Origin: Bacteroidota bacterium
GTDB taxonomy: Bacteria > Bacteroidota > Bacteroidia > Flavobacteriales > Flavobacteriaceae
NCBI GenBank assembly: GCA_020161455.1
Contig: JAIUNZ010000001.1
Span: 496,001-560,000 of the forward strand
Reading direction: 5' to 3'
Length of the DNA stretch: 64,000 nucleotides
In this document: positions 15,918 to 42,121 of the stretch, in pieces
Position numbering within the stretch: the stretch's first letter is position 1
How the letters are laid out: every line of letters starts with the position of its first letter
Position numbers and translations under genes: made by a program
Notes under the pieces: model-generated
What the model saw: only the letters and a program-made list of their open reading frames with translations
Databases searched by the model: none
Told to the model about the DNA's origin: nothing

Positions 15918-16041
15918 AATGTTTGTTTTTATAAGTTTATGTTACAAATTTCAATAAAACCAATACATAAGTATTTACAAGATTTTTACAGAAATTTATA
16001 GAATTAAACCATTTACATATCTACTTTGCTGAAAATCAACA

Positions 16042-16073
16042 AAAAAACCAATTACAGAAGCAATTGGCTTTTT
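16042..16073 (-). terminator. Terminator of the PhoH-family gene
   Basis: CCAATT (16048-16053), an 8-nt loop and AATTGG (16062-16067) are followed on the minus strand by seven T. Confidence 0.75.
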
Positions 16074-16099
16074 ATTAAATGTATTTCAAAAACATCTAT

Positions 16100-27462: not shown

Positions 27463-28095
27463 ATGCATACTATCCTAAAAGAAAACTACGGCTTTGTTTT
27501 TGAAGATAAACTAATAGATGAAATTGCTCAAGTAGCCACTTTAAAAGATTTTAAAGAAGGTGATGTTTTGATTGATTTTGGAGATTATATCAAAAAAATA
27601 CCATTATTAATTTCAGGTGCTATTAAAATTCTAAGAGAAGATTTTGACGAAGGTGAATTACTGCTTTATTTTATTGAAAAAGGAGAAACATGTGCAATGA
27701 CGATGGCGTGTTGTTTGGGCGAAACAAAAAGTGAAATTAGAGCCATTGCCGAAAACAAAGGAAAAGTAGTCATGATTCCTGTAAACTTCATGGAAGAATG
27801 GTTGGGTAAATATAAGTCATGGCGAAACTTTGTTTTTAACAGCTATAACAATCGATTAAAAGAAATGTTAGCCGCAATTGATAGTTTAGCCTTCTTGAAT
27901 ATGGATGATCGTTTAATGAATTATTTATTGGAGAAATCAAAAATCAATTCATCAAAAGAAATTAAAAGCACGCATCAAGAAATCGCTTATGATTTGCATA
28001 CATCTAGAGTTGTAATTTCTAGATTATTAAAAGCATTAGAAAATCAAGGACAAATAAAACTACATCGCGCTATTATTGAAATAGTGAAATCTTAG
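27463..28095 (+). CDS. Crp/Fnr-family transcriptional regulator with a cysteine cluster
   Basis: This is a 210-residue regulator. The N-terminal cyclic-nucleotide-binding-type beta roll (about 25-120) is followed by a dimer helix and a C-terminal winged helix-turn-helix (about 160-205; STHQEIAYDLHTSRVVISRLLKALENQG). In place of a canonical cNMP phosphate-binding cassette it has ETCAMTMACCLGE with C77, C83 and C84, so thiol or redox sensing is more likely than cAMP binding. It stands directly upstream of TauE and persulfide dioxygenase genes, and GTAACA-type dyads precede five promoters in the following 13 kb. I infer that it is their activator. Confidence 0.85.
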   Translation: MHTILKENYGFVFEDKLIDEIAQVATLKDFKEGDVLIDFGDYIKKIPLLISGAIKILREDFDEGELLLYFIEKGETCAMTMACCLGETKSEIRAIAENKGKVVMIPVNFMEEWLGKYKSWRNFVFNSYNNRLKEMLAAIDSLAFLNMDDRLMNYLLEKSKINSSKEIKSTHQEIAYDLHTSRVVISRLLKALENQGQIKLHRAIIEIVKS

Positions 28096-28138
28096 TAACA
28101 AATGTTGCTTTGGTTAAAAACAAAAAGCCAAACCTTTG
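28095..28138 (+). promoter_or_regulatory. tauE promoter with Crp-type dyad (site 1)
   Basis: Dyad GTAACAAATGTTGC (28095-28108), a 22-nt gap and -7 box AACCTTTG (28131-28138). The dyad overlaps the last codon and stop region of the Crp gene. The position of the box supports the ATG at 28155 as the tauE start. Confidence 0.75.
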
Positions 28139-28154
28139 TATTAAATTAATTGTA

Positions 28155-28958
28155 ATGGAAACTTCTTTGATTATTGGAAATATATTTGCAGTTTTAGTTG
28201 GCATTTCATTAGGAATTATTGGAAGCGGCGGATCCATATTATCGGTTCCAATTTTCACCTATATCATGAGTGTTGAACCTGTTTTGGCAACAGCCTATTC
28301 ATTGTTTGCAGTTGGTTCAACAGCTTTGTTTGGAGGAATTCAGAAAGCGAATCAAAAATTAGTTGACTTTAAAAAAGTATTTTTATTTGGAATTCCAACG
28401 GTTATTGCTGTTTTCATAACCCGAAAATACATAGTGCCTTCCATTCCCGATGTAGTTTTTGACACCGATTTATTTACATTACACAAATCGGTTTTAATCA
28501 TGTTGGTTTTTGCAGTTGTTATGATTTTGGCGGCAATTCGAATGATAAAACCATTAAAAGAAAGTGAATTAATTCTTGATGGAAAACTAAATTATGGTTC
28601 TATATTCTTTCAAGGAATATCCATCGGATTAGTAGCCGGGTTTGTTGGTGCTGGTGGTGGATTTTTAATTATTCCTGCTTTATTACTGTTGGCAAAAACT
28701 CCGATGAAAAAAGCTATTGGAACCTCATTGTTTATTGTTGCCATTCAATCACTAATTGGTTTTCTAGGCGATTTAAGTTCGAATGTAGAAATAGATTGGA
28801 AAATGCTTTTAACTTTTACAGCTTGTTCTATTGTCGGCGTTATTATTGGAAATTTGATTTCAAAAAAAATAACAGCTACAAAATTAAAAATTGGTTTTGG
28901 TTATTTTGTATTGACAATGGGTTTTTATATCATTATCAAAGAACTATTTCTAAAATAA
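28155..28958 (+). CDS. TauE/SafE-family sulfite/organosulfur exporter
   Basis: This 267-residue polytopic membrane protein of the TauE/SafE family has two repeats, beginning with LVGISLGIIGSGGSILSVPIF (about 15-35) and VAGFVGAGGGFLIIPALLLL (about 165-184). The family exports sulfite, sulfoacetate or thiosulfate. I chose the ATG at 28155 rather than an upstream one at 28110 because the upstream codons overlap the predicted promoter. The neighbouring persulfide dioxygenase produces sulfite, which this protein would remove. Confidence 0.88.
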   Translation: METSLIIGNIFAVLVGISLGIIGSGGSILSVPIFTYIMSVEPVLATAYSLFAVGSTALFGGIQKANQKLVDFKKVFLFGIPTVIAVFITRKYIVPSIPDVVFDTDLFTLHKSVLIMLVFAVVMILAAIRMIKPLKESELILDGKLNYGSIFFQGISIGLVAGFVGAGGGFLIIPALLLLAKTPMKKAIGTSLFIVAIQSLIGFLGDLSSNVEIDWKMLLTFTACSIVGVIIGNLISKKITATKLKIGFGYFVLTMGFYIIIKELFLK

Positions 28959-28967
28959 ATCTTAAAA

Positions 28968-29011
28968 GTAACATTGGTTACCTTTCAAAAAAATTATAAA
29001 GCTTAAATTTG
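28968..29011 (+). promoter_or_regulatory. cstB-like gene promoter with Crp-type dyad (site 2)
   Basis: Dyad GTAACATTGGTTAC (28968-28981), a 22-nt gap and -7 box TAAATTTG (29004-29011), with the start codon 23 nt further. The half-sites GTAAC/GTTAC are perfect. Confidence 0.8.
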
Positions 29012-29033
29012 TAATACTATTAAAAATTAAAAC

Positions 29034-30440
29034 ATGAAAATCGAACAAATATATACCGGATGTTTAGCACAAGGTGCTTATTATATTGAAAGTAATGGAG
29101 AAGTTGCCATCATTGATCCTTTGCGTGAAGTACAACCTTATCTAGATAAAGCAACTGCTGCTGGGGCAAAAATAAAATACATTTTCGAAACGCATTTTCA
29201 TGCCGATTTTGTGTCGGGACATGTTACTCTTGCCGAAAAAACAGGTGCGCCTATCGTTTTTGGACCAAATGCAAATCCTTCCTTTAAAGCACATGTTGCC
29301 AAAGATGGTGAAGTTTTTAAATTAGGTGATATTACCATTACATTACTCCATACACCAGGACATACGATGGAAAGTTCTTGTTATTTATTGAAAGATAAAA
29401 ACGGTAATGATTATGCATTGTTTAGCGGTGATACCTTATTCTTAGGTGATGTAGGTCGGCCAGATTTGGCCCAAAAAGCAGCACACATGACACAAGAACA
29501 ATTAGCAGGATTGCTATTTGATAGTTTAAGAAATAAAGTAATGACACTTGCAGATGACGTTATTGTATATCCAGCTCATGGTGCCGGAAGTGCTTGTGGA
29601 AAAAATTTAAGTAAAGAAACGGTTGGTACAATTGGAGAACAAAAAGCAACTAATTATGCTTTAAGAGCAAATATGACCAAAGAAGAATTTGTCAAAGAAG
29701 TTACCGATGGTTTATTGCCGCCGCCAGCTTATTTTCCAATGAATGTCAAGTTGAACAAAGAAGGCTATGAAAATGTAGAAACCATAATTAGTGAAGCGAA
29801 AGCATTTGATGCCAAAACTTTTGAATTGGTTGCCAATGAAACCGATGCTTTGATTCTTGATGTTCGTCATCAGGATGATTTTGAAAAAGGACACATTCCA
29901 AAATCTATTTTTATTGGAATTGATGGTGGATTTGCTCCGTGGGTTGGTGCCTTAATTTTAGATTACAAACAGCCAATTCTTTTAGTTACACCAGAAGGAA
30001 GAGAAGAAGAAACCATAACCCGATTGGCTCGAGTAGGTTATGATAACACAATTGGTTATCTCGAAGGAAGTTTTGAAGCGTGGAAAAATGCTGGATTAGA
30101 ATATGATACGCTAACTTCCGTTTCTGCCGAAGTTTTGGAAGATAAAATAAATAAAAATGCTAAAGTTTTTGATGTTAGAAAACCAGGTGAATACCAATCT
30201 GAGCATATAGTTGATGTTCCATCTACGCCTTTAGATTTTATAAACGACCATATTGCTGAGTTTCCAAAAGAAGAAGAATTTTATTTACATTGTGCAGGTG
30301 GTTATCGTTCTGTAATTGCAGCTTCTATTTTAAAAGCACGTGGCTATCATAATGTAATCAATGTTCTTGGAGGATTTTCGGCTATTAAAAATACGGGAAT
30401 AAAAACAACAAATTACGTTTGTCCATCTACACTAAAATAA
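29034..30440 (+). CDS. Persulfide dioxygenase-rhodanese fusion (CstB-like)
   Basis: The 468 residues comprise an N-terminal metallo-beta-lactamase domain (about 1-230) with THFHADFVSGH (53-63), HTPGHT and FSGDTLFLGDVGRPD as in ETHE1-type persulfide dioxygenases, then two rhodanese domains. The first (about 265-360) lacks a catalytic cysteine (LLVTPEGREEE where the loop should be); the second (about 375-465) has LHCAGGYRS with the active Cys. MBL, pseudo-rhodanese, active rhodanese is the order in Staphylococcus CstB, which turns persulfide into thiosulfate. It would detoxify excess sulfide-derived sulfane sulfur in the cytoplasm. Confidence 0.9.
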   Translation: MKIEQIYTGCLAQGAYYIESNGEVAIIDPLREVQPYLDKATAAGAKIKYIFETHFHADFVSGHVTLAEKTGAPIVFGPNANPSFKAHVAKDGEVFKLGDITITLLHTPGHTMESSCYLLKDKNGNDYALFSGDTLFLGDVGRPDLAQKAAHMTQEQLAGLLFDSLRNKVMTLADDVIVYPAHGAGSACGKNLSKETVGTIGEQKATNYALRANMTKEEFVKEVTDGLLPPPAYFPMNVKLNKEGYENVETIISEAKAFDAKTFELVANETDALILDVRHQDDFEKGHIPKSIFIGIDGGFAPWVGALILDYKQPILLVTPEGREEETITRLARVGYDNTIGYLEGSFEAWKNAGLEYDTLTSVSAEVLEDKINKNAKVFDVRKPGEYQSEHIVDVPSTPLDFINDHIAEFPKEEEFYLHCAGGYRSVIAASILKARGYHNVINVLGGFSAIKNTGIKTTNYVCPSTLK

Positions 30441-30643
30441 TGAAAAAGTTACTCTTTACCAATTGGCATTTTATGCGATTTTTTAGAATTGCGTTGGCAT
30501 TGTTTCTTTTTTACAATGCTTACATAACTCATGAATGGTTTTTTATTGTATTTGGAATATTCTTTTTAATTCAAGCTATTTTTAATTTGGGTTGTAGTCC
30601 TAATGGATGTAATGTTTCTTACAAATCAACTAAAAATGAATAG
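30440..30643 (+). CDS. YgaP-type (DUF2892) small membrane protein
   Basis: The 67-residue protein starts at the ATG overlapping the previous stop (TAATG at 30438-30442). Two transmembrane segments (about 14-28 and 32-50) fit the DUF2892/YgaP membrane domain. A short tail contains GCSPNGC, a CxxxxC pair close to the membrane. In other bacteria this domain is fused or adjacent to rhodaneses and is linked to sulfur transfer. It is translationally coupled to the cstB-like gene. Confidence 0.75.
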   Translation: MKKLLFTNWHFMRFFRIALALFLFYNAYITHEWFFIVFGIFFLIQAIFNLGCSPNGCNVSYKSTKNE

Positions 30644-30938
30644 TAGTTTTCAAAATATTATTAATTCTGATAAACCAGTTTTGATTGATTTTTTTGCCAC
30701 TTGGTGCGGACCATGTAAAATGCTTGCACCAATTTTAAAAGAAGTTAAAGATAGTTTAGGCGAAAAAATTTCAATTATCAAAATAGACGTTGATAAAAAC
30801 CAAGATTTAGCATCAATGCAACAAGTTCGTGGTGTTCCAACGATGATTATGTATCAAAATGGTAAACAATTATGGCGACAATCGGGAGTATTATCAAAAG
30901 AAGAATTAATTAATGTTATTTTAGAAAAAATTAATTAA
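30636..30938 (+). CDS. Thioredoxin
   Basis: This 100-residue thioredoxin-fold protein has active site WCGPCK at about 26-31, cis-proline loop GVPT at about 67-70, and no signal peptide, so it is cytoplasmic. The start is taken at 30636, overlapping the upstream stop by 8 bp (ATGAATAG). Within this operon it probably reduces persulfides or disulfides formed on the rhodanese or on the flanking membrane proteins. Confidence 0.93.
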   Translation: MNSSFQNIINSDKPVLIDFFATWCGPCKMLAPILKEVKDSLGEKISIIKIDVDKNQDLASMQQVRGVPTMIMYQNGKQLWRQSGVLSKEELINVILEKIN

Positions 30939-31129
30939 TGTCAAAAAAAGGGTACATCATTACAGGAATTGGAATAGTAGTAGGCTTAATTGCTGGTTAT
31001 GCTTATTATTACTTTGTTGGTTGTTCGTCAGGAACTTGTGCCATTACTTCAAAACCATTAAACAGTACGTTGTATGGTGGATTAATGGGTGGATTGCTGT
31101 TTAATATGTTTGTAAAAGAGAAAAAATAA
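30938..31129 (+). CDS. DUF6132-like small membrane protein
   Basis: The 63 residues have two hydrophobic segments (about 7-26 and 44-58) separated by a loop with GCSSGTCAITSKPLNSTLYGG. The ATG overlaps the thioredoxin stop (TAATG). The pattern GCSxxxC repeats that of the DUF2892 protein on the other side of thioredoxin. The family is common in Bacteroidota sulfur operons; its function is unknown. Confidence 0.75.
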   Translation: MSKKGYIITGIGIVVGLIAGYAYYYFVGCSSGTCAITSKPLNSTLYGGLMGGLLFNMFVKEKK

Positions 31130-31160
31130 AAAAGTATTTCATTGTGAACTACTTTTTTTA
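31129..31160 (+). terminator. Terminator of the sulfur cassette
   Basis: AAAAAGTA (31129-31136) pairs with TACTTTTT (31150-31157), with further inner pairs TTCA/TGAA, followed by T. It separates the cassette from the TetR gene. Confidence 0.7.
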
Positions 31161-31197
31161 TGTATCTTTGTTAACCAAATGGTTAAACTAATTAGTT
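31142..31197 (+). promoter_or_regulatory. tetR promoter with two palindromic operators
   Basis: TTG at 31142-31144, an 18-nt spacer and TATCTTTG at 31163-31170 make the promoter. Immediately downstream are TTAACCAAATGGTTAA (31171-31186, 7-bp arms) and the perfect palindrome AACTAATTAGTT (31186-31197), just before the ATG at 31200. Both cover the transcription start, as expected for autorepression by the TetR-family protein. Confidence 0.7.
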
Positions 31198-31199
31198 AA

Positions 31200-31808
31200 A
31201 TGAAAAAATTAGAATCAAATACGGAAGAATTAATTTTTGCAAGTGCTATCAAAATCTTTCACAAAAAAGGTTTAGCTGGTGCTCGAATGCAAGAAATTGC
31301 AGATGAAGCAGGAATAAATAAAGCAATGCTTCATTATTATTTTAGAAGCAAACAATTGCTTTTTGAAGCCGTTTTTAAAAAAGCATTCATGCAATTGGCA
31401 CCACAAATTCATCAAGTGTTGAATTCTGAAGATTCGTTATTTGAAAAGATTGAAAATTTTGCTGACAAGTACATTTCGTTTGTAATGGAAAATCGGTTTT
31501 TACCCACTTTCATTATTCAAGAATTAAATAACAATCCAGATTTTGCAAATCAATTTTTTAGTCAAGCTGAATTTCCAAAATCAACACGCTTTTTAATCCA
31601 AATTGAAGAAGGCATTCAAAATGGAACAATCAAAAATGTAAATCCAAAACAATTATTGATTGATATGTTTTCGTTAGCCATTTTTCCATTTGTTGGTGCA
31701 CCATTACTTCAAAAAATAACAAATGTTAATGAATCAGCATATAACAACTTGTTAATCGAACGAAAAAAACACATAGCTTCAATGCTAATAAATAGTATTA
31801 AAAAATGA
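31200..31808 (+). CDS. TetR/AcrR-family regulator of the ABC exporter
   Basis: In this 202-residue protein the N-terminal HTH (about 10-55) has ILFASAIKIFHKKG-like and MQEIADEAGINKAMLHYYFRSKQLLFEAVFKKAF, the classic TetR signature; the C-terminal domain is variable. It heads the exporter operon, overlapping the TolC-type gene by 4 bp. The E. coli analogue in an equivalent operon is CecR, upstream of ybhGFSR. The inducer is unknown, probably a substrate of the pump. Confidence 0.9.
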   Translation: MKKLESNTEELIFASAIKIFHKKGLAGARMQEIADEAGINKAMLHYYFRSKQLLFEAVFKKAFMQLAPQIHQVLNSEDSLFEKIENFADKYISFVMENRFLPTFIIQELNNNPDFANQFFSQAEFPKSTRFLIQIEEGIQNGTIKNVNPKQLLIDMFSLAIFPFVGAPLLQKITNVNESAYNNLLIERKKHIASMLINSIKK

Positions 31809-33055
31809 GAAATTTAATAATAATTTTATTCCTGTTTTTCGGAACTTTCCTTCAAGCGCAACAAAAGTTGACTTTGGAAGAATGTTACAACTTGGTAGAT
31901 AAAAATTATCCTTTAGCCAAACAAAGGCAATTGTTAGACCAAAAAAATACATTTGAAGCTGATGCTTTACAAAAAGCAAAACTCCCAAAAATAGATGTCA
32001 ACGCACAAGCAACGTATCAATCTGAGGTTACACAATTGCCAATTAGTTTACCAAATATTTCCGTAAATCCAGCTAACAAAGATCAGTATCGAGCGACTTT
32101 GGATGTCAATCAATTGCTTTATAATGGTGGTTTAATTGATGCCAATATGCAATTGAAACAAATGCAAACCAAAGTGCAACAACAACAAATTGCGGTGAAT
32201 TTGTATCCATTGAAATCAAAAATAAATTATCATTTTATGTCGGTTTTGTTATTGCAAGAGCAGAAAAACTTGTTGATTTCCAAAAGGAATTTGCTTTTAG
32301 AAAAAATAAAAGAAGTACAATCGGCGGTAAAATTTGGTGCTTTACTGCCATCATCAGAACAAGTCTTAGAAGCTGAAATTCTAAAAATAAAACAAGCGTT
32401 AACCGAAAATGATTTTCAACGCATTAAAGAAATTCAAAATTTAGCAGCTTTAACAAGTACCGTTATTTCAAATGATGTGGAATTCGTACAACCCATTACG
32501 ACAATTAACACCAACGGAAATCGTCCAGAACTTGAGCTTTTCAAATTGCAAAACCAACAAATTGAGCAGTCAAAAAATATTTTGTCAAAAAGTAATTTAC
32601 CTAAACTAAATGCTTTTGGTCAAGCAGGTTATGGAAATCCAGGTTTAAATATGCTAAACAATTCCTTTGAAACATTTTATATGGTTGGATTAAAAATGAA
32701 TTGGAATGTATTTGATTGGCATAAATCAAAATCAGAGAAACAAGCATTAGATGTTGCAAAACAAGTAGTTGCCACAGAAAAAGAATCATTTGAATTGAAT
32801 AACGAAATGCAATTAAAAGAATTGGAAACTGAAATTCAAAAGATGCAAAAAATCCTTGAAACCGATGCTGAAATTATTGCTTTGCGCGAAAAAATCATCA
32901 AAGTTTCTGATTCACAACTTAAAAATGGAGTCATCACAACTTCTGAATATATAATAGAAGTAACGAATTTATTTGATGCGAAAACCAACGAAAAAATACA
33001 TCAAACGCAACTCGAATTAACTAAAGTAAATTATCAAATAAATAAAGGAATATAA
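31805..33055 (+). CDS. TolC-family outer-membrane efflux protein
   Basis: The 416-residue protein has a signal peptide (MRNLIIILFLFFGTFLQA). Long helical stretches with periodic Q/L/K and two structural repeats (LTLEECYNLVDKNYPLAKQR early, NELQLKELETEIQKMQ late) are typical of TolC/OEP. ATG overlaps the tetR stop. It forms the outer-membrane channel of the downstream ABC exporter. Confidence 0.88.
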   Translation: MRNLIIILFLFFGTFLQAQQKLTLEECYNLVDKNYPLAKQRQLLDQKNTFEADALQKAKLPKIDVNAQATYQSEVTQLPISLPNISVNPANKDQYRATLDVNQLLYNGGLIDANMQLKQMQTKVQQQQIAVNLYPLKSKINYHFMSVLLLQEQKNLLISKRNLLLEKIKEVQSAVKFGALLPSSEQVLEAEILKIKQALTENDFQRIKEIQNLAALTSTVISNDVEFVQPITTINTNGNRPELELFKLQNQQIEQSKNILSKSNLPKLNAFGQAGYGNPGLNMLNNSFETFYMVGLKMNWNVFDWHKSKSEKQALDVAKQVVATEKESFELNNEMQLKELETEIQKMQKILETDAEIIALREKIIKVSDSQLKNGVITTSEYIIEVTNLFDAKTNEKIHQTQLELTKVNYQINKGI

Positions 33056-33107
33056 TAAAGAAACCCCAATATTTAAAATTCCAAATTCCAACAAAAATAG
33101 TCATCAA

Positions 33108-33980
33108 ATGAAAAATATCATAACAATACTAATTATATTAACGATAATTTCTTGCAACAAAGACAAAAACGAAGCTGATGCTTTCGGAAATTTCGAAGCT
33201 ACAGAAATAACAATTTCAGCTGAAGCAAACGGTAAAATTGAATTCTTAAACTTAGAAGAAGGAGATGTTTTGCAAGAAAATGCTATTGTTGGTCAAATTG
33301 ACACTGTACAATTGTATTTAAATAAACAACAATTATTGGCTTCAAAAAATACGATTTATTCTAAATCAACCAATGTTTTATCACAACGTAATGTGTTAAA
33401 CGAACAACTAAAAACGACTTTAATTGAGCAAAAAAGAATTCAGAATATGTTTGCTGAAAGTGCTGCAACAAAACGTCAAGTGGATGAAGTAAATGGAAAA
33501 GTAAGCGTTTTAAAACAACAAATGCAAAGTGTAGAAACCCAAAACGCACCAATTATTAACGAAGTTAAATCAATTGATGTTCAAATAGAAAAAATCAACG
33601 ACCAACTAAAAAAATCGAAAATTATCAATCCAGTTTCAGGAACAGTTTTAGCAAAATATGCTGAGCCAAATGAAATTACAGCGTTTGGCAAACCCTTATA
33701 CAAAATAGCTAATTTAAATGAAATGACTTTACGCGTTTATTTTAGTGAAACCCAATTAGCATCTATAAAAGTTGGGCAAGAAGTAAATGTAACCATTGAC
33801 GACAAAGACGGAACAAAACCCTACAAAGGAAAAATTTCATGGATTTCATCATCGGCAGAATTCACCCCAAAAATCATTCAAACAAAAGAGGAAAGAGTCA
33901 ACTTAGTTTATGCTGTAAAAGTTATCGTAAAAAATGAGGGTGCATTGAAAATTGGAATGCCTGCAGAAGTTAAATTGTAA
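33108..33980 (+). CDS. HlyD/YbhG-type membrane fusion lipoprotein
   Basis: The 290-residue protein has lipobox IISC (C16). It has the biotinyl-lipoyl half motifs (ISAEANGKIEFLNLEEGDVL; INPVSGTVLAKYAEPNE), a coiled-coil hairpin in between (about 75-165), and a beta-barrel domain. It is the periplasmic adaptor linking the ABC permeases to the TolC-type protein, as YbhG does. Confidence 0.88.
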   Translation: MKNIITILIILTIISCNKDKNEADAFGNFEATEITISAEANGKIEFLNLEEGDVLQENAIVGQIDTVQLYLNKQQLLASKNTIYSKSTNVLSQRNVLNEQLKTTLIEQKRIQNMFAESAATKRQVDEVNGKVSVLKQQMQSVETQNAPIINEVKSIDVQIEKINDQLKKSKIINPVSGTVLAKYAEPNEITAFGKPLYKIANLNEMTLRVYFSETQLASIKVGQEVNVTIDDKDGTKPYKGKISWISSSAEFTPKIIQTKEERVNLVYAVKVIVKNEGALKIGMPAEVKL

Positions 33981-33990
33981 AACAACCACT

Positions 33991-34275
33991 ATGAATTTAA
34001 AAAACTTACATACGGAAGAAAAAGCAGTTCAAACTAAAGTATTATTTGAACCAACTCAAAATGTGATTTCTATACAAATTGCAAAAGAAGAACAATTGAA
34101 AGAACATATCACAAAAATACCAGCATTATTAGTTTGTGTTTCTGGTGGTGGAAGTTATAGCGATGAAAGTGGCAGAAAACTGAGCTTAAAATCAGGTGAT
34201 TATGTAAATATAGAACCAAACGTAAAACATTGGGTAGATGCATTTGAAGAAAGTAATTTTCTTTTGATTAAATAG
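33991..34275 (+). CDS. Small cupin-domain protein
   Basis: The start is set at the ATG at 33991 (94 residues), since the longer reading frame overlaps the HlyD gene. The sequence PALLVCVSGGGSYSDESGRKLSLKSGDYVNIEPNVKHWVDA is a cupin-2 barrel with GDYVNIEPNVKHW as the second motif and only one clear metal histidine. It lies within the ABC operon. Its role is unclear; it may be a small-molecule sensor or scaffold. Confidence 0.75.
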   Translation: MNLKNLHTEEKAVQTKVLFEPTQNVISIQIAKEEQLKEHITKIPALLVCVSGGGSYSDESGRKLSLKSGDYVNIEPNVKHWVDAFEESNFLLIK

Positions 34276-34300
34276 TTAATCACTAATCACTTTTTAACAT

Positions 34301-35197
34301 ATGAGCATTTCTGTCCAAAACATATCAAAATCCTATAAATCAATCCAAGCCATTGATGACGTTTCTTTTGAAGTAAACGAAGGAGAATTATTTGGATTAA
34401 TTGGACCGGATGGAGCAGGAAAAACTACTATTTTCAGAATTCTAACCACACTTTTGATAGCCAATGAAGGCAATGCCAAAGTTTTAGAATATGATGTAAA
34501 GCAGGATTATAAAGCCATTCGAAATTCTGTGGGTTATATGCCAGGAAAGTTTTCACTATACCAAGATTTAACAGTAGAAGAAAATTTGACCTTTTTTGCG
34601 ACGATTTTCGGAACAACCATTGAAGAAAACTACGATTTAATCGAAGATATTTACGTTCAAATAGAACCGTTTAAAAAACGAAGAGCAGGAGCATTATCTG
34701 GCGGCATGAAACAAAAGTTAGCCTTATGTTGTGCCTTAATTCACGCACCAAAAGTCTTATTTTTAGACGAACCAACTACTGGAGTTGATCCCGTTTCTCG
34801 AAAAGAATTTTGGCAAATGCTGAAACGTTTACAACAAAAAGGAATTATCATTTTAGTTTCCACACCTTATATGGACGAAGCTGCATTGTGTGATAGAATT
34901 GCCTTAATCCAAAAAGGAAAAATATTAAAAATCGATTCACCAAGTAACATCATTTCAAAATATGACAAGACTATTTATGACATTCAATCCAATAATACGC
35001 ATGGATTAATTCACGATTTAAAAAATTATTCCAGTAATTACAGTGTTTATGCTTTTGGAGAATTCATTCATTATATTGATAAAAATCCTGATTTCAATTC
35101 AAATGATTTAAAGAAATATTTAGAAAATAAAGGTCATGCAGAAATAATAATAAAAAATGCAACCACAACAATTGAAGATGTATTTATGGATTTGTAA
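34301..35197 (+). CDS. ABC transporter ATPase (YbhF N-terminal half type)
   Basis: The 298-residue nucleotide-binding protein has Walker A GPDGAGKTT at about 35-43, signature LSGGMKQKLALCCAL at about 134-148, Walker B VLFLDEPTTGVDP, and a C-terminal extension of about 80 residues. It and the next ATPase correspond to the two halves of the fused YbhF ATPase of E. coli. It would energise export through the two downstream permeases. Confidence 0.9.
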   Translation: MSISVQNISKSYKSIQAIDDVSFEVNEGELFGLIGPDGAGKTTIFRILTTLLIANEGNAKVLEYDVKQDYKAIRNSVGYMPGKFSLYQDLTVEENLTFFATIFGTTIEENYDLIEDIYVQIEPFKKRRAGALSGGMKQKLALCCALIHAPKVLFLDEPTTGVDPVSRKEFWQMLKRLQQKGIIILVSTPYMDEAALCDRIALIQKGKILKIDSPSNIISKYDKTIYDIQSNNTHGLIHDLKNYSSNYSVYAFGEFIHYIDKNPDFNSNDLKKYLENKGHAEIIIKNATTTIEDVFMDL

Positions 35198-35200
35198 AAA

Positions 35201-35230
35201 GTATTAAGATTTGAGTATTAAGTATTAAGA
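35201..35230 (+). repeat. 30-bp intergenic repeat, copy 1
   Basis: The unit begins GTATTAAGATTTGAG and ends with two tandem GTATTAAG-like words. It recurs at 36017-36046 (identical) and inverted at 37441-37470 (one mismatch), always between genes of this operon. Confidence 0.8.
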
Positions 35231-35276
35231 CATTTTGAAGAAGTAAATTTGTGGTAATTTGTGTCAAAAAATAAAA

Positions 35277-36011
35277 ATGAAAAAAGAAACCATCATACAA
35301 GTTGAAAACTTAACCAAAAAATTTGGAGATTTCACAGCTGTGAAAGGCATTACTTTTGATGTGTATAAAGGAGAAATTTTCGGTTTTCTTGGTGCAAACG
35401 GAGCAGGAAAAACAACTGCAATGAAAATGCTCATCGGAATTTCTAATCCAACTTCTGGTAAAGCAAATGTAGCAGGTTTTGATGTGTTGACACAAAGAGA
35501 AATAGTTAAGAAAAGTATTGGTTACATGAGTCAAAAGTTTTCACTTTATGATGATTTAACAATTAACGAAAACATCACTTTTTTTGGTGGAATTTATGGG
35601 TTAACGCGAAAGCTGATTAAAGAAAAAACAATTCAATTAGTACAAGAATTAGAAATGCAAGACGTTGCGGATAATCTGGTAGGTTCATTGCCATTAGGTT
35701 GGAAACAGAAATTATCTTTTTCAGTAGCCTTATTACACGAACCCAAAATAGTTTTTCTAGATGAACCAACAGGTGGCGTTGACCCAATAACCAGAAGACA
35801 ATTTTGGGAAATGATTTACACCCAAGCATACAAAGGCACAACCATATTCGTAACCACGCATTACATGGACGAAGCCGAATATTGCGACCGAGTTTCCATT
35901 ATGGTTGATGGCGTAATTGAAGCCTTAGACACACCAAAAAAACTAAAAGAACAGTTCAAAGTAGATTCTATGAATGATGTGTTTTTAAAGTTGGCTAGGA
36001 ATATAGAATAG
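35277..36011 (+). CDS. ABC transporter ATPase (YbhF C-terminal half type)
   Basis: This ATPase has 244 residues from the ATG at 35277; an in-frame ATG 18 bp upstream lacks support. Walker A is GANGAGKTT and Walker B IVFLDEPTGGVDP. The ABC signature is degenerate, SLPLGWKQKLSF, as in the second half of YbhF (SLPLGFKQ). It pairs with the preceding ATPase, which has a canonical signature, suggesting an asymmetric heterodimer. Confidence 0.9.
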   Translation: MKKETIIQVENLTKKFGDFTAVKGITFDVYKGEIFGFLGANGAGKTTAMKMLIGISNPTSGKANVAGFDVLTQREIVKKSIGYMSQKFSLYDDLTINENITFFGGIYGLTRKLIKEKTIQLVQELEMQDVADNLVGSLPLGWKQKLSFSVALLHEPKIVFLDEPTGGVDPITRRQFWEMIYTQAYKGTTIFVTTHYMDEAEYCDRVSIMVDGVIEALDTPKKLKEQFKVDSMNDVFLKLARNIE

Positions 36012-36016
36012 GTAAA

Positions 36017-36046
36017 GTATTAAGATTTGAGTATTAAGTATTAAGA
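36017..36046 (+). repeat. 30-bp intergenic repeat, copy 2
   Basis: This is identical to copy 1 over 30 bp. It begins the 211-bp gap between the ATPase and permease genes. Confidence 0.8.
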
Positions 36047-36084
36047 TTTAATAAGAAAATAGAACAAAGAGTAAAGAAGAAAGA

Positions 36085-36215
36085 GTAAAGAAAAAAAATC
36101 CGTGAAAATCCTTGAAAATCGAGGCAAAAAATTTCTTTAATTTCTTAAATCCGTGTTCCAAAAATTAAACCTTGCGAACTTTGCGTAAACCTTTGCGGAC
36201 TTTACGGTTAAAAAA
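36085..36215. repeat. Flavobacterial intergenic repeat with alternating CTTTGCG/ACTTTGCG words
   Basis: The stretch includes ATTTCTTTAATTTCTTAAAT, CCGTGTTCC and then a short-period array of CTTGCGAACTTTGCG and CTTTGCGGACTTTACGG words. Similar phrases (TTTCTTTAATCTGTGTTCC) recur at about 60870-60905. It has no coding potential, and such families are dispersed between genes in this group. Confidence 0.55.
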
Positions 36216-36222
36216 TAACAAA

Positions 36223-37329
36223 ATGAAAAGATTCATCGGTTTTGTAAAAAAAGAATTCTATCACATTTTTCGTGATAAACGTTCTATGTTCATCCTTTTC
36301 GGAATGCCAATTGCACAAATTATGCTATTCGGATTTGCCATTACAAACGAAATAAACAACGTAAAAATTGCTATTTTAGACCAATCAAAAGATGTAGAAA
36401 CGCATAAAATAATCCAAAAAATTAGTAATTCTTCCTATTTTACAATAGATCAAGAAATTAAAAAGGAATCAGAAATTGAATCTATTTTCAAAAAAGGGAA
36501 AGTAAAAGCAGTTTTGGTTTTTGAAAAAGATTTTGTCAAGCATTTACAAACTCAAAAAAACGCAAAAGTTCAGGTAATTACCGATGCAACAGACCCGAAT
36601 ATGGCAAATACCATTTCTAATTATATTACTTCTATTTTACAAAATCATATCCAAGAAAAAAACAAAAACACCAAACAAGTCTATCAAATTAATACCCAAA
36701 CGCAGCTGTTTTATAATCCAGAAATGAAAAGCGTTTTCACCTTTGTTCCAGGTGTAATGACTGTTATTTTAATGCTCGTTTCAGCTATGATGACTTCCAT
36801 TTCTATAACTCGCGAAAAAGAATTAGGAACGATGGAAATTCTATTAGTTTCTCCGCTAAAACCGTTTCAAGTCATCATCGGAAAAGTATTTCCTTACATC
36901 TTTTTATCTGTAATCAACGCTGCAGTTATTCTACTTTTAGGTTTTTTTGTGTTCAAAATGCCTATTGAAGGAAGTCTTTTTTTATTAGCTATAGTAAGCG
37001 TTTTGTTTATAGTTTGCGCATTAGCATTAGGGATTTTAATTTCCACTTTAGCAGATTCCCAACAAACAGCAATGATGATTTCACTATTTGGGCTCATGTT
37101 ACCTGTAATATTGTTGTCTGGATTCATTTTTCCTATTTCAAGTATGCCGTTTCCATTACAAGTTATCAGTAATATTATTCCGGCTAAATGGTTCATTATT
37201 ATCATAAAAGCGATTATGCTTAAAGGTGCAACTTTTGCACTAATTTGGAAAGAAACGCTAATTTTAGTATTCATGACTATAGTATACATAGGATTAAGCA
37301 TCAAAAAATACAAAATACGATTAGAATGA
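36223..37329 (+). CDS. ABC-2 type permease (YbhS-like)
   Basis: The 368 residues run from the ATG at 36223; the longer frame from 36172 would translate the repeat. The N-terminus GFVKKEFYHIFRDKRSMFILFGMPIAQIMLFGFAI is characteristic of YbhS/YbhR permeases. One N-terminal transmembrane helix precedes a periplasmic domain (about 55-180), then five helices, with the ISITREKELGTMEILLVSPL elbow motif. It pairs with the next permease. Confidence 0.9.
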   Translation: MKRFIGFVKKEFYHIFRDKRSMFILFGMPIAQIMLFGFAITNEINNVKIAILDQSKDVETHKIIQKISNSSYFTIDQEIKKESEIESIFKKGKVKAVLVFEKDFVKHLQTQKNAKVQVITDATDPNMANTISNYITSILQNHIQEKNKNTKQVYQINTQTQLFYNPEMKSVFTFVPGVMTVILMLVSAMMTSISITREKELGTMEILLVSPLKPFQVIIGKVFPYIFLSVINAAVILLLGFFVFKMPIEGSLFLLAIVSVLFIVCALALGILISTLADSQQTAMMISLFGLMLPVILLSGFIFPISSMPFPLQVISNIIPAKWFIIIIKAIMLKGATFALIWKETLILVFMTIVYIGLSIKKYKIRLE

Positions 37330-37440
37330 TTTTTTTTTAGGAGCTATTTCCTGCTATCCGTTGCAATCTTTTATTTTAAAAAAAATAAAAGGATTTCCAC
37401 TACTATCAGGGCTATAAATTCGCTTTTCTAACAAAAAAAG

Positions 37441-37470
37441 TCTTAATACTTAATACTCCAATCTTAATAC
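37441..37470 (-). repeat. 30-bp intergenic repeat, copy 3 (inverted)
   Basis: This is the reverse complement of copies 1 and 2 with a single mismatch. It ends 7 bp before the GTG start of the second permease. Confidence 0.8.
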
Positions 37471-37477
37471 TCACAAA

Positions 37478-38602
37478 GTGAAAACAATACTATTCATCAT
37501 ACAAAAGGAATTCAAGCAAATTTTTAGAAATAAAAGCATGTTGCCTATTATTTTTATTTTGCCTTTGTTACAATTGGTTATTCTATCCAATGCAGCGAGT
37601 TTTGAAGTCAAAAACATCAAATTCTCTTTTGTAGATAACGATCATTCAGCAGCTTCACGCGAGTTGATTAGTAAGTTTCAAGCATCTACTTATTTTAACG
37701 TAGTAACCGATTTTAAATCTAAAAAAGAAGCGGATTTACAAATGCAAAATGGAAATGTCGATGTTATTTTAGAAATTCCAATTCACTTTGAGCGCAATTT
37801 AATCAAACAGCAAAACACCAATCTTTCAGTAAGTATCAATGCAATTGATGGAGCAGCAGCTGGAGTTTCAAACGTTTATATTTCTCAAATTATTACGGGC
37901 TATAATCAATCTATACAAACACAATTGCAAACCTATAATCAAGGAATTATTGAACAACCTGAAAACATTATGACCATTCCTTCTTTTTGGTACAACAAAA
38001 CGTTGAATTACAAAACCTTTATGGTGCCGGGAATATTAGTGTTATTAGTAACAATGCTTACCCTATTTTTATCCTCAATGAATATCGTTCGCGAAAAAGA
38101 AGTTGGAACTTTAGAACAAATAAACGTAACACCAATAAAAAAACACCAATTCATCATTGGGAAATTATTTCCATTTTGGGTTTTAGGCTTGGTGATTTTA
38201 ACGGTTGGGTTAATTATCGCAAAAGTAATTTTTAGTGTACCCATTTTAGGAAATATATTTTTGATTTATGGATTTACATCTGTTTATCTAATTTTAATTT
38301 TAGGTATTGGTTTGTTTATTTCTAATCATACCGAAACCCAACAGCAAGCGATGTTTATTGCGTGGTTTTTTACCGTGATATTCATTTTAATGAGCGGACT
38401 TTTCACACCTATAGAAAGCATGCCCGTATGGGCTCAAAAAGTAACGTTATTAAATCCAATTCGCTATTTCGTAGAAGTAATTAGAATGGTAATGCTCAAA
38501 GGAGCAACTTTTACTGATATAAAAATACAATTAGGTGTAATAGTAATATACGCTATGATTGTGAATGGTTTAGCTGTGTGGAGTTACAAAAAAGTTAATT
38601 AA
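37478..38602 (+). CDS. ABC-2 type permease (YbhR-like), GTG start
   Basis: This 374-residue permease starts with GTG at 37478; no ATG lies in a suitable position. The N-terminus FIIQKEFKQIFRNKSMLPIIFILPLLQLVILSNAA and the motif MNIVREKEVGTLEQINVTPIKKHQFIIGK are those of YbhR-type permeases. One N-terminal helix, a periplasmic domain and five C-terminal helices are predicted. It completes the tripartite exporter. Confidence 0.9.
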   Translation: MKTILFIIQKEFKQIFRNKSMLPIIFILPLLQLVILSNAASFEVKNIKFSFVDNDHSAASRELISKFQASTYFNVVTDFKSKKEADLQMQNGNVDVILEIPIHFERNLIKQQNTNLSVSINAIDGAAAGVSNVYISQIITGYNQSIQTQLQTYNQGIIEQPENIMTIPSFWYNKTLNYKTFMVPGILVLLVTMLTLFLSSMNIVREKEVGTLEQINVTPIKKHQFIIGKLFPFWVLGLVILTVGLIIAKVIFSVPILGNIFLIYGFTSVYLILILGIGLFISNHTETQQQAMFIAWFFTVIFILMSGLFTPIESMPVWAQKVTLLNPIRYFVEVIRMVMLKGATFTDIKIQLGVIVIYAMIVNGLAVWSYKKVN

Positions 38603-38665
38603 TTTTTTTCAATAAAAAAAAAGTATATATTTGAATTCTAAAGCTAAAGCAAAGTTTGTTTTAAT

Positions 38666-38709
38666 GTATCATTTGTTACATTAAATTTAGAATAATGAAA
38701 TTATATTTG
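38666..38709 (+). promoter_or_regulatory. Promoter with Crp-type dyad (site 3)
   Basis: Dyad GTATCATTTGTTAC (38666-38679; one mismatch in the left half), a 22-nt gap, and -7 box TATATTTG (38702-38709). The gene begins 48 nt downstream. Confidence 0.7.
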
Positions 38710-38756
38710 TTTTAGCAAATAGGTTTACAAATTAATCACAAATAAGAATAATCAAA

Positions 38757-38960
38757 ATGAAAAAATTAGTTTCTACATTGGCAGTTGTAGCTTTTATGTT
38801 TACAATGTCAGCAAATGCTTCAACAGGTGAGCCAAAACAAAAAAAGAAAAAAGCTAAAACTGAAAAAACTTGTTCAACAGAAGAGAAAAAGTCTTGTGAA
38901 AAAGGTGAAGAGAAAAAAGGCGGATGTTGTGCTTCAAAAAAAGCAGAAGTTAAGTCTTAA
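38757..38960 (+). CDS. Small exported Cys/Lys-rich protein
   Basis: The 67 residues comprise a signal peptide (MKKLVSTLAVVAFMFTMSANA) and a 46-residue mature part with about 17 lysines, eleven Glu/Asp and four cysteines (C39, C47, C57, C58, the last as GGCCAS). I recognise no family. Such a composition suggests a periplasmic thiol- or metal-binding peptide. It has its own promoter with a Crp-type dyad and its own terminator, and the composition argues against a chance ORF. Confidence 0.7.
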   Translation: MKKLVSTLAVVAFMFTMSANASTGEPKQKKKKAKTEKTCSTEEKKSCEKGEEKKGGCCASKKAEVKS

Positions 38961-38982
38961 TTTCTTTCGAAATTATCATAGA

Positions 38983-39013
38983 AAAGTGTTTGAGAAATCA
39001 AGCACTTTTTTTG
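38983..39013 (+). terminator. Terminator of the Cys/Lys-rich protein gene
   Basis: AAAAGTGTTTGA pairs with TCAAGCACTTTT (one G-T pair), with loop GAAA, followed by further T. Confidence 0.85.
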
Positions 39014-39014
39014 T

Positions 39015-39058
39015 GTAACAAATGTTGCAATCTATATGTTTTTAATAGGTTAAATTTG
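39015..39058 (+). promoter_or_regulatory. Promoter with Crp-type dyad (site 4)
   Basis: Dyad GTAACAAATGTTGC (39015-39028), identical to site 1, a 22-nt gap, and -7 box TAAATTTG (39051-39058). The start codon at 39078 follows. Confidence 0.8.
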
Positions 39059-39077
39059 TTAAATTCAAATCCATCTT

Positions 39078-40673
39078 ATGAAAAAACATTACTATTTATT
39101 GTTGATTGTTTTTAATTTTACTTTTTCCCAATCAACTTTCGATTATCAGTTAGAAATCAATCCAGTTACTATTCCAAACTTCCCAGGAATACATTCGTAT
39201 GCATTTGGTCAGAGCAATGGAAAATGGTTAATCATTGGTGGAAGAGTTGACGGAATTCATGCGAGACAACCTTTTAATGCATTTCCTGCTTCAAACAATA
39301 ATACAAATATTTATGTGGTTGATATTAATACACAGCAATTTTGGACTGCTTCAACTAATTCCTTATCAACGAGTATAAAAGAACAACTACAGGCTTCCAA
39401 TTTTAATTTTTATCAAGACAATAGTTCTTTATATATTATTGGTGGTTATGCTTTTTCTGCTACAGCAAATGATCATATTACTTTTGATAAATTAACATCA
39501 ATAGATGTTCCTAATCTAATTGATGCAATAATTAACGGAAATCCAATTCAAAGTTATTTTAAACAAATTCAAAATTCAAACTTTGCCATTACAGGCGGAC
39601 AATTAGGTAAAATTGACGATACTTTTTATTTGATTGGTGGACATCGTTTTGATGGAAGATACAACCCAATGAATAACCCAACGTTTACACAAACCTATTC
39701 CAATCAAATTCGAAAATTCAATATTGATAATTCTGGAAACCAATTGAGTATTTCTAATTATGAAACCATTACAGATGCGGTTCATTTGCATCGAAGAGAT
39801 TATAATTTAATGCCGTAAATATTCCCAGATGGCACACAAGGTTACACGATTTCTTCGGGAGTTTTTCAAATAAATGTTGATTTGCCATTTTTGTATCCGG
39901 TAGATATTAAATCAACAGGATATTTTCCGCAAACAAATTTCAATCAATATTTGAGTAATTACCATAGTGCAAAAGTTGGTTTGTATGATGCCACTGAAAA
40001 CCGTATGCACAATTTGTTTTTTGGTGGAATTAGTCAATATTATTATAACGGAACAATTTTAGTGCAAGACAATAATGTTCCTTTTGTAAATACCATAAGT
40101 AGGACTACTCGATTTGCAGATGGTTCTTTGATAGAATACCAATTACCCGTTTCAATGCCGTCACTAAAAGGCGCTAGTGCCGAATTTATTCTAAATAAAA
40201 ATTTACCTTATTTTGAAAATGAAGTTATAAAATTGGATGAAATTACTTCAGATGAATTTGTAATTGGTCATATTGTTGGTGGAATTCAAAGTTCAACTGC
40301 CAATCCATTTACTTCAAATCAAACGGGCACTACTTCTGCAAATGCAACCATTTATGAAGTAAAATTAATACGTCAACCTAATCTAAGTGTTTATGAAATA
40401 AATGGTAAAAATCCATTTTCTATGAAAGTTGTTCCAAATCCTAGTGTAAACGGAAAACTAAAAATCAATTTCTTTATGGATTATGTTACCTCAATCGATT
40501 ATTTTGTGTCAACAATGGATGGAAAAATAATTGCCGATGGAGAAATTTCAGATACTTCTATAGGTGAGAACACAATGAATTTTGAAATAGATGAGGTTTC
40601 AAATCAAACGGTTGTAGTTACTTTTATTTTTGATAATAAGTTTTATGTATCTCAAAAAGTGCTGGTTAAATAA
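39078..40673 (+). pseudogene. Kelch-like T9SS-exported protein interrupted by an in-frame stop
   Basis: Two ORFs (39078-39818 and 39882-40673) are in the same frame, and the 63 bp between them translate sensibly (IFPDGTQGYTISSGVFQ and so on) apart from one TAA at 39816-39818, which would be CAA (Gln) in an intact gene. The whole protein of about 531 residues has a signal peptide, kelch-like units (WLIIGGRVDG, LYIIGGYAF, FYLIGGHRFDG, NLFFGGISQ) and a C-terminal T9SS type A sorting domain (VVPNPSVNGKLKINF..SQKVLVK). The product would be a beta-propeller surface protein. A sequencing error is possible. Confidence 0.8.
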
Positions 40674-40694
40674 TTTATTTAGTTGTTTTGGTTG

Positions 40695-40725
40695 AAAAGT
40701 GTTCTAGTAATAGAGCACTTTTTTT
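40695..40725 (+). terminator. Terminator after the kelch-like gene
   Basis: AAAAGTGTTCTA (40695-40706) pairs with TAGAGCACTTTT (40711-40722), with a GTAA loop, followed by T. Confidence 0.85.
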
Positions 40726-40740
40726 ATATCTGACTTTAGT

Positions 40741-40784
40741 GTAACACTTGTTACTGTCATCCGGTTAATCTAGCCTTAAATTTG
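40741..40784 (+). promoter_or_regulatory. RND operon promoter with Crp-type dyad (site 5)
   Basis: Dyad GTAACACTTGTTAC (40741-40754, perfect 6-bp half-sites), a 22-nt gap and -7 box TAAATTTG (40777-40784). The gene starts at 40808. Confidence 0.82.
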
Positions 40785-40807: not shown

Positions 40808-42121
40808 ATGAAACAGATGAAGTTTATTTTAACATGTGCTATTTTTCTAAGCTCATTTATTGGATTCAGTCAAGATACTTTGATGGTTTCCAAAAATGAT
40901 TTAGTGCAAAAAGTAACCGATAAAAATTTACAATTAAAAATTACTGAAAAAAGTTATCAATCGGCAAAAGCTGATTATAACCAATCGAATGCACTTTTTT
41001 TGCCTAATATAAATGTGTCATATACCGGAATTTCTACTACAAATCCGTTGATGGCTTTTGGTTCCAAATTAAACCAGGAAATTTTAACCCAAGCTGATTT
41101 TAATCCTGTTTTATTAAATGATCCCGCAAAAATTCAAAATTTTGCTACTAAAATTGAAATTCAACAACCATTGATTAATATCGATGGTCTATATGAAAGA
41201 CAAGCTGCCAAAGCAAAAATGGAAGCTTTTCGATTGCAAACTGAGCGTACCAAAGAATACCTAGAACTCGAAGTTTCCAAAGCCTATATGCAATTGCAAT
41301 TGGCGTATAAAGCCGTAAAAGTGCTTGAAAAAGCAGATGTTACGGGCAAAGCCAATTTGAAATTAGTGGAAAATTATTTTAAACAAGGAATGTTGCAAAA
41401 AACCGATTTGTTGAATGTTCAAGTGCGTGTAAATGAAATCAATAATCAATTGCAATATGCTAAAAGTAACGTGCAAAATGCATCCGATTATTTGGCATTT
41501 TTATTAAATGAAGATACAAACGGAAAGGTATTTAAACCTTTAGAGGAATTAGAAAATACTATTTCTATTGAAAGCTTAAACACTGAAATTTCCGAGAACA
41601 GAAAAGATATTCAGGCAATGAATAAATCTTCGGAAGCGTATAAAAAAATGATACAATCGTCAAAAATGGGATTTTTACCAAAATTGAATGCTTTTGGAAG
41701 TTATGAATTGTATGATGATAAATTTCTGCAAACTGATGCAAAAGGATATTTAGTTGGAGCACAATTGTCTTGGAATGTTTTTGATGGCTATAAATCCATT
41801 GGAAAATACAACAAGGCCAAAGCTGATTTTCAAAAGGCTGAAGTAGAAACCGAGCAGTATAAAAAACAAAGTCAATTGGAATTGAATAAAACCAATCGCC
41901 AATTAAAAGATGCTGAAAACAAAGTAAATCTATCCCAATTAGCTTTCGAACAATCGCAAGAAGCATTCAGAATTCGTCAAAATCGATTTGCGCAAGGTTT
42001 AGAAAAAACAACAGATTTACTTCAATCGGAAACACAAATGATACAAAAAGAATTAGAGCATTTACAAGCCGTTTTTGAATACAATTTCACCAAACAATAT
42101 TTACAGTTTTTAACCAAATAA
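40808..42121 (+). CDS. TolC-family outer-membrane protein of the RND pump
   Basis: The 437-residue protein has a signal peptide (about 1-21, ending GFSQ). Helical OEP repeats are seen (DLVQKVTDKNLQLKITEKSYQSAKADYNQ; later QSQLELNKTNRQLKDAENKVNLSQ). It is the first gene of the RND operon and would form the outer-membrane duct. The promoter carries a Crp-type dyad. Confidence 0.88.
   Translation: MKQMKFILTCAIFLSSFIGFSQDTLMVSKNDLVQKVTDKNLQLKITEKSYQSAKADYNQSNALFLPNINVSYTGISTTNPLMAFGSKLNQEILTQADFNPVLLNDPAKIQNFATKIEIQQPLINIDGLYERQAAKAKMEAFRLQTERTKEYLELEVSKAYMQLQLAYKAVKVLEKADVTGKANLKLVENYFKQGMLQKTDLLNVQVRVNEINNQLQYAKSNVQNASDYLAFLLNEDTNGKVFKPLEELENTISIESLNTEISENRKDIQAMNKSSEAYKKMIQSSKMGFLPKLNAFGSYELYDDKFLQTDAKGYLVGAQLSWNVFDGYKSIGKYNKAKADFQKAEVETEQYKKQSQLELNKTNRQLKDAENKVNLSQLAFEQSQEAFRIRQNRFAQGLEKTTDLLQSETQMIQKELEHLQAVFEYNFTKQYLQFLTK

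Follow-up and report, generated by a model that had tools for sequence, protein, structure and literature searches.

A GTAAC-N4-GTTAC dyad 22 nt from the −7 box as the probable mark of a sulfur-stress regulon of a Crp-type regulator in the family Flavobacteriaceae

Introduction

Why do several promoters in one stretch of a flavobacterial genome carry the same inverted repeat at the same distance from the −7 box? The stretch considered here, referred to as the window, is 64,000 nucleotides of contig JAIUNZ010000001.1 (assembly GCA_020161455.1) from a member of the family Flavobacteriaceae. It contains a gene for a Crp/Fnr-family regulator at 27463 and, from 28095 onwards, five dyads that a first-pass annotation attributed to a regulon of this regulator. 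Judging from promoter geometry and the genes that follow the sites, it is highly probable that these dyads mark a sulfur-stress regulon read by the 27463 regulator at the class II position. This assessment overlaps in part with those made of the alternatives below, and the cysteine-based sensing mechanism is assessed separately.

Dyads and boxes in the window and its genome

The regulator gene, the dyads and their boxes are as follows.

27463..28095, + strand, Crp/Fnr-family regulator, 210 aa (PF00027, PF13545; Cys77/Cys83/Cys84; recognition helix TSRVVISR)
28095..28108, + strand, dyad GTAACAAATGTTGC, centre 28101.5, before TauE
28131..28138, + strand, −7-type box AACCTTTG, one mismatch to TANNTTTG, spacing 22
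28968..28981, + strand, dyad GTAACATTGGTTAC, centre 28974.5, exact core, before the metallo-beta-lactamase (MBL)-rhodanese gene
29004..29011, + strand, −7 box TAAATTTG, spacing 22
38666..38679, + strand, dyad GTATCATTTGTTAC, before the Cys/Lys-rich exported peptide
38702..38709, + strand, −7 box TATATTTG, spacing 22
39015..39028, + strand, dyad GTAACAAATGTTGC, before the kelch-like gene
39051..39058, + strand, −7 box TAAATTTG, spacing 22
40741..40754, + strand, dyad GTAACACTTGTTAC, centre 40747.5, exact core, before the TolC/HlyD/RND operon
40777..40784, + strand, −7 box TAAATTTG, spacing 22

All five dyads are present exactly as the first-pass annotation wrote them, and each is separated from a −7-type box by exactly 22 nt, as it had claimed. 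The five boxes were likewise located, although that of the 28095 site is off consensus. The dyad is real but its consensus has been corrected, and because positions 6–9 are degenerate the core is written here as GTAAC-N4-GTTAC. Allowing up to one mismatch to GTAACANNTGTTAC, the window holds five matches only, these being the five sites; allowing up to two it holds 13, where shuffled sequences average 3.26 and none of 100 shuffles gives as many.

Across the organism's own genome (3.08 Mb, with the reversed pattern as control) the dyad alone is not enriched, there being 238 matches with up to two mismatches versus 325 for the reversed pattern, and four exact GTAACN4GTTAC cores versus 16. When the box at N22 is included, up to three mismatches give 22 places versus 12 in the control, so the weak end of this list is mostly noise. 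The excess sits at the good end, where six places have at most one mismatch over dyad and box, four of them in the window. Of the four exact cores in the genome, three are accompanied by an exact box at N22 (rough chance 3e-8); it is the box at 22 nt, not the dyad as such, that sets these sites apart. The rest of the genome has two additional likely sites, one (C3:110285) upstream of a rhodanese gene and the other (C3:165878) upstream of a gene that we take to be DUF983-like. The latter is supported because DUF983-like homologues carry a site in three of the 122 sites inspected for targets (defined below) and because six of 137 sites in the named loci, with up to one mismatch, precede such homologues.

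Conservation of the dyad and its spacing

The search of family genomes that had been suggested as a check was carried out on 100 genomes, one per genus, again with the reversed pattern as control. The exact GTAACN4GTTAC-N22-TANNTTTG arrangement occurs at 124 sites in 62 of the 100, and the reversed control at none. Over spacings of 8–36 there are 163 exact pairs, 124 at 22 and approximately 39 elsewhere, versus 38 control matches over all 29 spacings; the spacings other than 22 are together at control level, except for a small excess at 21 (at least 12 pairs among the matches listed, where one or two are expected per spacing). In 80 named loci, some of which come from genomes that are also in the family sample, the spacing is 22 for 53 of 59 exact dyad-box pairs, and for 76 of 85 with one dyad mismatch allowed. 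The exact site was found in 17 of 148 genomes of an order-level sample (reversed control, one) and in 26 of 296 genomes of a phylum-level sample, all 26 within the same class (reversed control, none).

Chance was therefore rejected as the source of the dyad-box pairs, on the evidence of the shuffles, the genome and family counts, and the spacing. The first-pass annotation had judged the constant spacing hard to attribute to chance, and the shuffles, the reversed controls and the spacing of 22 in relatives bear this out; the random scatter across the genome that it named as telling against its proposal was looked for and is not what is seen.

Promoter geometry and the direction of regulation

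In Flavobacterium psychrophilum the sigma-A box TAnnTTTG is described as spanning −12 to −5 (PMC9723704). With the box so placed and a gap of 22 nt, the 14 bp dyad would therefore lie at −48 to −35, centred at −41.5, in agreement with the class II position, about 41 bp upstream of the start, that had been proposed. The operator thus has a constant class II spacing, the start being placed from the box by F. psychrophilum numbering.

Promoter elements and targets were surveyed over 122 sites, comprising 121 in other genomes and the rhodanese site of the organism's own genome, with the five window rows excluded. The −33 element has the consensus TTG; a TTG starting at −34, −33 or −32 was seen in none, none and one of these, respectively. 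There being no −33 element at these promoters, an activator should be needed, and we infer that the regulator is a class II activator rather than a repressor.

The reverse arrangement, in which the regulator occupies −48 to −35, blocks sigma-A and is released by persulfide, would suit the abutment of the dyad on the −33 region, and CstR, SqrR and BigR are described as repressors in the available text of PMC9774590 and PMC7315123. The strict phasing to the −7 box and the missing −33 TTG instead suit an activator, and the same layout is described at promoters activated by NtcA (PMC3898017), a source that reports repression by NtcA as well, at genes where the box is placed elsewhere. Repression is considered unlikely.

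Genes downstream of the sites

The genes that follow the window sites are listed here.

28155..28958, + strand, TauE/SafE-family exporter (PF01925, E 1.2e-38)
29034..30440, + strand, metallo-beta-lactamase with two rhodanese stretches (PF00753, two stretches of PF00581)
30440..30643, + strand, 67-aa small protein, likely in the MBL-rhodanese operon (without Pfam match; homologues in 13 fetched loci)
30633..30938, + strand, thioredoxin, likely in the MBL-rhodanese operon (PF00085; TIGR01068 above cut-off)
30938..31129, + strand, DUF6132 small protein, likely in the MBL-rhodanese operon (PF19628)
38757..38960, + strand, Cys/Lys-rich exported peptide, 67 aa (without Pfam match; homologues in seven fetched loci)
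39078..40673, + strand, kelch-like gene for a putative secreted protein (Kelch match below curated cut-off; T9SS being the label of the first-pass annotation)
40808..42121, + strand, outer-membrane efflux protein of TolC type (PF02321)
42148..43233, + strand, HlyD-type adaptor (named by eye and position)
43280..46504, + strand, RND permease (NCBIfam RND matches, all below curated cut-offs)
46522..46827, + strand, 101-aa small protein (without NCBIfam match; presumably DUF3240)
46843..47028, + strand, YgaP-like transmembrane protein (PF11127)

The product of 29034..30440 is presumably comparable to CstB, a persulfide dioxygenase. The kelch-like gene (39078–40673) is broken by an in-frame stop at 39816–39818, and its homologue in L237 is open. 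Between the two blocks of sites, from 31200 to 38602, lie genes read by eye as TetR, TolC, HlyD, two ABC ATPases and two ABC permeases, with no dyad at up to one mismatch and two dyads with two mismatches (31716 and 38048).

Targets over the 122 sites were labelled by homology, several by eye. The first gene is TauE at 24 sites, TolC of an RND pump at 23, MBL at 22, rhodanese at nine, DUF983-like at three, and thioredoxin and the regulator itself at one each, leaving 39 unlabelled. Seventeen of the MBL proteins are at least 57 % identical to the MBL-rhodanese protein of the window and five are 31–36 % identical, one of these being only 150 aa. The 39 unlabelled first genes were grouped by eye, with Pfam run on one representative of most groups: cytochrome c/Tll0287, a small unknown protein and Thioredoxin_9 (five each); YeeE/YedE-type Sulf_transp (four); SulP, NrfD/Fe-S with a molybdopterin subunit, and fatty-acid hydroxylase, one of the last followed by an MBL gene (three each); cytochrome bd, HMA, a second small protein, and no gene or a contig end (two each); and YgaP-like, cupredoxin and cyclase (one each). 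In the named loci two kinds of flavoprotein also lie downstream, at 13 sites by eye, and for the three tested the best NCBIfam match is the type III sulfide:quinone reductase (SQR), below its curated cut-off. Peroxiredoxin genes are also among the targets in other genomes. At 121 sites, for each of which a gene was looked for over 300 nt, the median distance from box to start codon is 20 nt, and at 116 of them it does not exceed 120 nt.

The commonest predicted targets are thus sulfur genes. The target list of the first-pass annotation holds in part: many genera have the TauE, MBL-rhodanese and RND sites as well, but the peptide and kelch sites do not recur. The sites at 38666 and 39015 are putative operators, called from sequence and spacing in the organism's own genome only.

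The same regulon and regulator might respond to a metal such as copper, or to general thiol or oxidative stress, in which case the three cysteines would bind metal or form disulfides. The predicted targets in the window include an RND pump and an exported peptide rich in Cys, and the HMA (2 of 122), cupredoxin (1 of 122) and peroxiredoxin genes stand under sites elsewhere. Set against this, TauE, MBL-rhodanese and rhodanese are the commonest targets, with YeeE/YedE and SQR-like genes besides. The pump itself also points away from metal: an RND match was found in 41 fetched loci, 11 of which contain, in addition, at least one of the two small genes found after the window pump and can therefore be judged, and in 10 of these 11 the operon ends with a YgaP-like homologue. 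A metal or general thiol signal is given a small probability.

Two observations concern individual targets. In L084, L091, L106, L136 and L141 the first gene after the site encodes a small protein whose start resembles (V)KFI(A)VDANGL; the representative tested gave no Pfam match, and the L091 gene is followed by DoxX, another small gene, and 5′-nucleotidase-like and redoxin genes. In L161 an adenylate/guanylate-cyclase-like gene (3790–4914, PF00211) has site G031 86 nt upstream, possibly a cyclic-nucleotide link or possibly chance.

The regulator protein

The 27463 product belongs to the Crp/Fnr superfamily, with PF00027 and PF13545 above cut-off, a cyclic-nucleotide-binding domain being followed by a Crp-type helix-turn-helix. 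All 50 Foldseek matches listed are of Crp/Fnr type, with TM-scores mostly around 0.5 and one of 0.75 to 4ev0_D. The protein has only three cysteines, Cys77, Cys83 and Cys84, all in the ligand domain. In alignments of 49 (A1) and 39 (A2) regulator sequences, Cys77 is invariant (49/49 and 39/39) and all three cysteines are kept in 44/49 and 38/39; in the recognition helix R182 is present in 49/49 and 39/39 and V183 in 49/49 and 38/39.

The triad aligns with the cAMP-holding part of the CRP domain, in which, on the residue numbers and cAMP contacts that we take to apply to CRP, E72 is replaced by Met79 and T127/S128 are replaced. Identity as cAMP-CRP was rejected, on a score of 52.8 bits versus a cut-off of 266 and the lack of conservation of E72, T127 and S128; nor is the NCBIfam NtcA equivalog score reached (37.6 bits versus a cut-off of 244.95). 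FNR has four cysteines for its 4Fe-4S cluster, three of these N-terminal, and its recognition helix shares the Glu of CRP. Identity as FNR was rejected on the cysteine pattern described above, in which the N-terminal cluster is absent. For the same reason, and because the recognition helix is without the Glu of CRP, it is very unlikely that the protein is an FNR-like oxygen or Fe-S sensor whose cysteines hold an iron-sulfur cluster or a haem site, in spite of its Crp/Fnr fold with conserved Cys and the cytochrome bd among the targets.

The recognition-helix pattern was found in 76 of the 80 named loci, with 72 Val and six Glu copies at position 183. A switch by this residue between GTAAC and GTGAC half-sites is not claimed, the evidence pointing both ways. 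In its favour, the Glu copies in L248 and L251 each accompany one GTGAC half-site, and the second copies in L303 and L291 are near a GTGAC-N4-GTCAC and a mixed dyad, respectively. Counter to it, two GTAAC sites are present in L295 (Glu), and L251 and L252 (Glu) also have a GTAAC site before TolC. These second regulator copies, with Glu rather than Val in the recognition helix, are in L303 at 14476–16150 and in L291 at 14844–15870, and their dyads are 22 nt from the box.

Two other loci deserve mention. The Porphyromonas loveana record (L264) contains a regulator 69 % identical to the 27463 product, with no site at up to one mismatch in the stretch, and this is a case of transfer or of contamination of the record. 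In L046 (574–587) GTGACAAATGTCAC is flanked on each side by a TANNTTTG box at a distance of exactly 22, possibly two divergent promoters for a related regulator of Crp type.

Co-occurrence of site and regulator

Matches to the 27463 product at E 1e-30 are present in 83 of the 100 family genomes, 76 being counted as strong orthologues and seven as weak. Among the named loci, those of Flavobacterium lacus (L231) and Zhouia amylolytica (L304) are examples with an orthologue. The exact site was found in 60 of the 76 genomes with a strong orthologue versus 2 of the 24 with a weak one or none (p 5e-10), in the phylum sample in 22 of the 54 genomes matching at E 1e-45 versus 4 of 242 (p 8e-15), and within the same genus in all 5 genomes matching below E 1e-80 versus 1 of 13 (p 7e-4), these p values ignoring the kinship of the genomes. 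The surroundings of the regulator were examined in each of the 16 family genomes that have no exact site despite a strong orthologue, and 11 have a near-match at N21–23, with 17 near-matches in total versus none for the reversed dyad. Binding by a different Crp/Fnr paralogue, suggested by the several Crp-like candidates in family genomes and by the few genomes with a site and no strong orthologue, is highly improbable given that site presence follows the orthologue even within a genus and that 66 of the 124 sites are within 10 kb of the regulator gene. The proposal of a regulon of the adjacent Crp/Fnr gene is thus supported by site-orthologue co-occurrence, by the predicted sulfur targets and by the fixed class II spacing.

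Proposed mechanism

The best reading, because of the geometry and the sulfur targets, is a class II activator for sulfide or persulfide stress. The sites would be operators of the 27463 regulator, a dimer of which would bind GTAAC-N4-GTTAC centred at −41.5 and activate sigma-A transcription through a class II contact with RNA polymerase. The trigger would most likely be sulfide-derived persulfide or polysulfide, sensed by Cys77, Cys83 and Cys84 through a proposed cysteine chemistry; the signal is suggested by the Cys triad and by the kinds of gene under the sites. Here the regulon would detoxify and export sulfur by means of TauE, MBL-rhodanese, rhodanese, thioredoxin and the RND pump, and elsewhere it would include SQR-like proteins, YeeE/YedE, SulP, molybdo/NrfD enzymes and cytochrome bd.

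Several findings weigh against this interpretation. None of seven Cys/Lys-peptide homologues (400 nt upstream searched) and not the one kelch homologue (320 nt upstream searched) has a site. No convincing SQR was found in the organism's own genome by two queries, made without a positive control, the best match being 28 % over 112 aa. One or two of the cysteines are missing in 5 of the 49 regulator copies of A1. In the AlphaFold model, a monomer, the Cys region (residues 71–90) is of low confidence, with block means of 65 and 56, so Cys distances were not read from it. In the family sample 5 of the 76 genomes with a strong orthologue lack the exact site and also show no near-match in the stretch fetched. 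Conversely, of the genomes that do have a site, 4 of 26 in the phylum sample and 2 of 62 in the family sample are without a strong orthologue.

Comparison with known systems

Compared with E. coli-type CRP, the regulator has the same fold, domain order, class II position and an Arg at the position of R180, but E181 is replaced by Val183 and the aligned cAMP contacts are changed. NtcA of cyanobacteria is described as binding GTA-N8-TAC at about −41.5 with a TAN3T −10 box (PMC3898017). Its site is contained within GTAAC-N4-GTTAC, which also lies near −41.5 on the box position of PMC9723704, and its helix STRVTVTR aligns with TSRVVISR, with Val where CRP has Glu181; unlike NtcA, to which overall similarity is low, the 27463 regulator would control sulfur rather than nitrogen genes and has a Cys triad in the ligand domain. 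The best Protein Data Bank sequence match is 3dv8 (E 5.5e-24), a Crp/Fnr-family structure from Eubacterium rectale, which has Cys at the positions of Cys77 and Cys83 but not of Cys84 and is from a different phylum.

FisR is reported to control SQR, persulfide dioxygenase (PDO) and TauE, and BigR to control YeeE-YedE-PDO2 in Acinetobacter baumannii (PMC7315123). The targets of FisR, SqrR/BigR and CstR thus have the same functions as those predicted here, but these regulators are sigma-54 activators or repressors of the ArsR or CsoR families (PMC9774590), whereas the 27463 product has a Crp/Fnr fold and a predicted class II sigma-A site. Persulfide-responsive regulators control SQR, PDO, rhodanese or TauE genes and have a conserved reactive Cys pair; here the predicted sites precede SQR-like, MBL-rhodanese, rhodanese and TauE genes, which the regulator may control, and the cysteines, which may be reactive, are conserved. 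The A. baumannii Crp-like protein A1S_1182 also has the Crp fold and is reported to be persulfidated after sulfide, with the effect given as unknown (PMC7315123), but it is near E. coli Crp and Vfr, has its conserved Cys opposite the pocket and is not described in the available text as a dedicated sulfur regulator.

The sulfide and persulfide regulators named in the available text of PMC9774590 are of the CsoR, ArsR and Fis/sigma-54 types, with OxyR, LasR and OhrR, and none is named there as Crp/Fnr or as from Bacteroidota; the accessible parts of reports on other Bacteroidetes Crp/Fnr proteins (PMC6955866, PMC13370916) show no matching motif. No description of the motif or of a dedicated Crp/Fnr persulfide regulator was seen among the literature matches listed, which included few subscription papers and partly missed the slash spelling.

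Significance

The dyad-box arrangement is most likely the mark of family-wide sulfur-stress control by an uncharacterised Crp-type regulator. There is about an even chance of the broader proposal that an entire Bacteroidia branch of the Crp/Fnr family is a dedicated persulfide sensor, its cyclic-nucleotide pocket rebuilt to sense sulfur with three Cys, and that it switches on a sulfide-oxidation regulon throughout the class by way of a rigid GTAAC-N4-GTTAC/N22 promoter. The analysis offers a concrete regulator, operator and target list that may be used for target prediction in Bacteroidia genomes, with few false matches, since the reversed control gave none in 100, one in 148 and none in 296 genomes, and it would assign the RND pump, together with several families of unknown kind, to a sulfur regulon.

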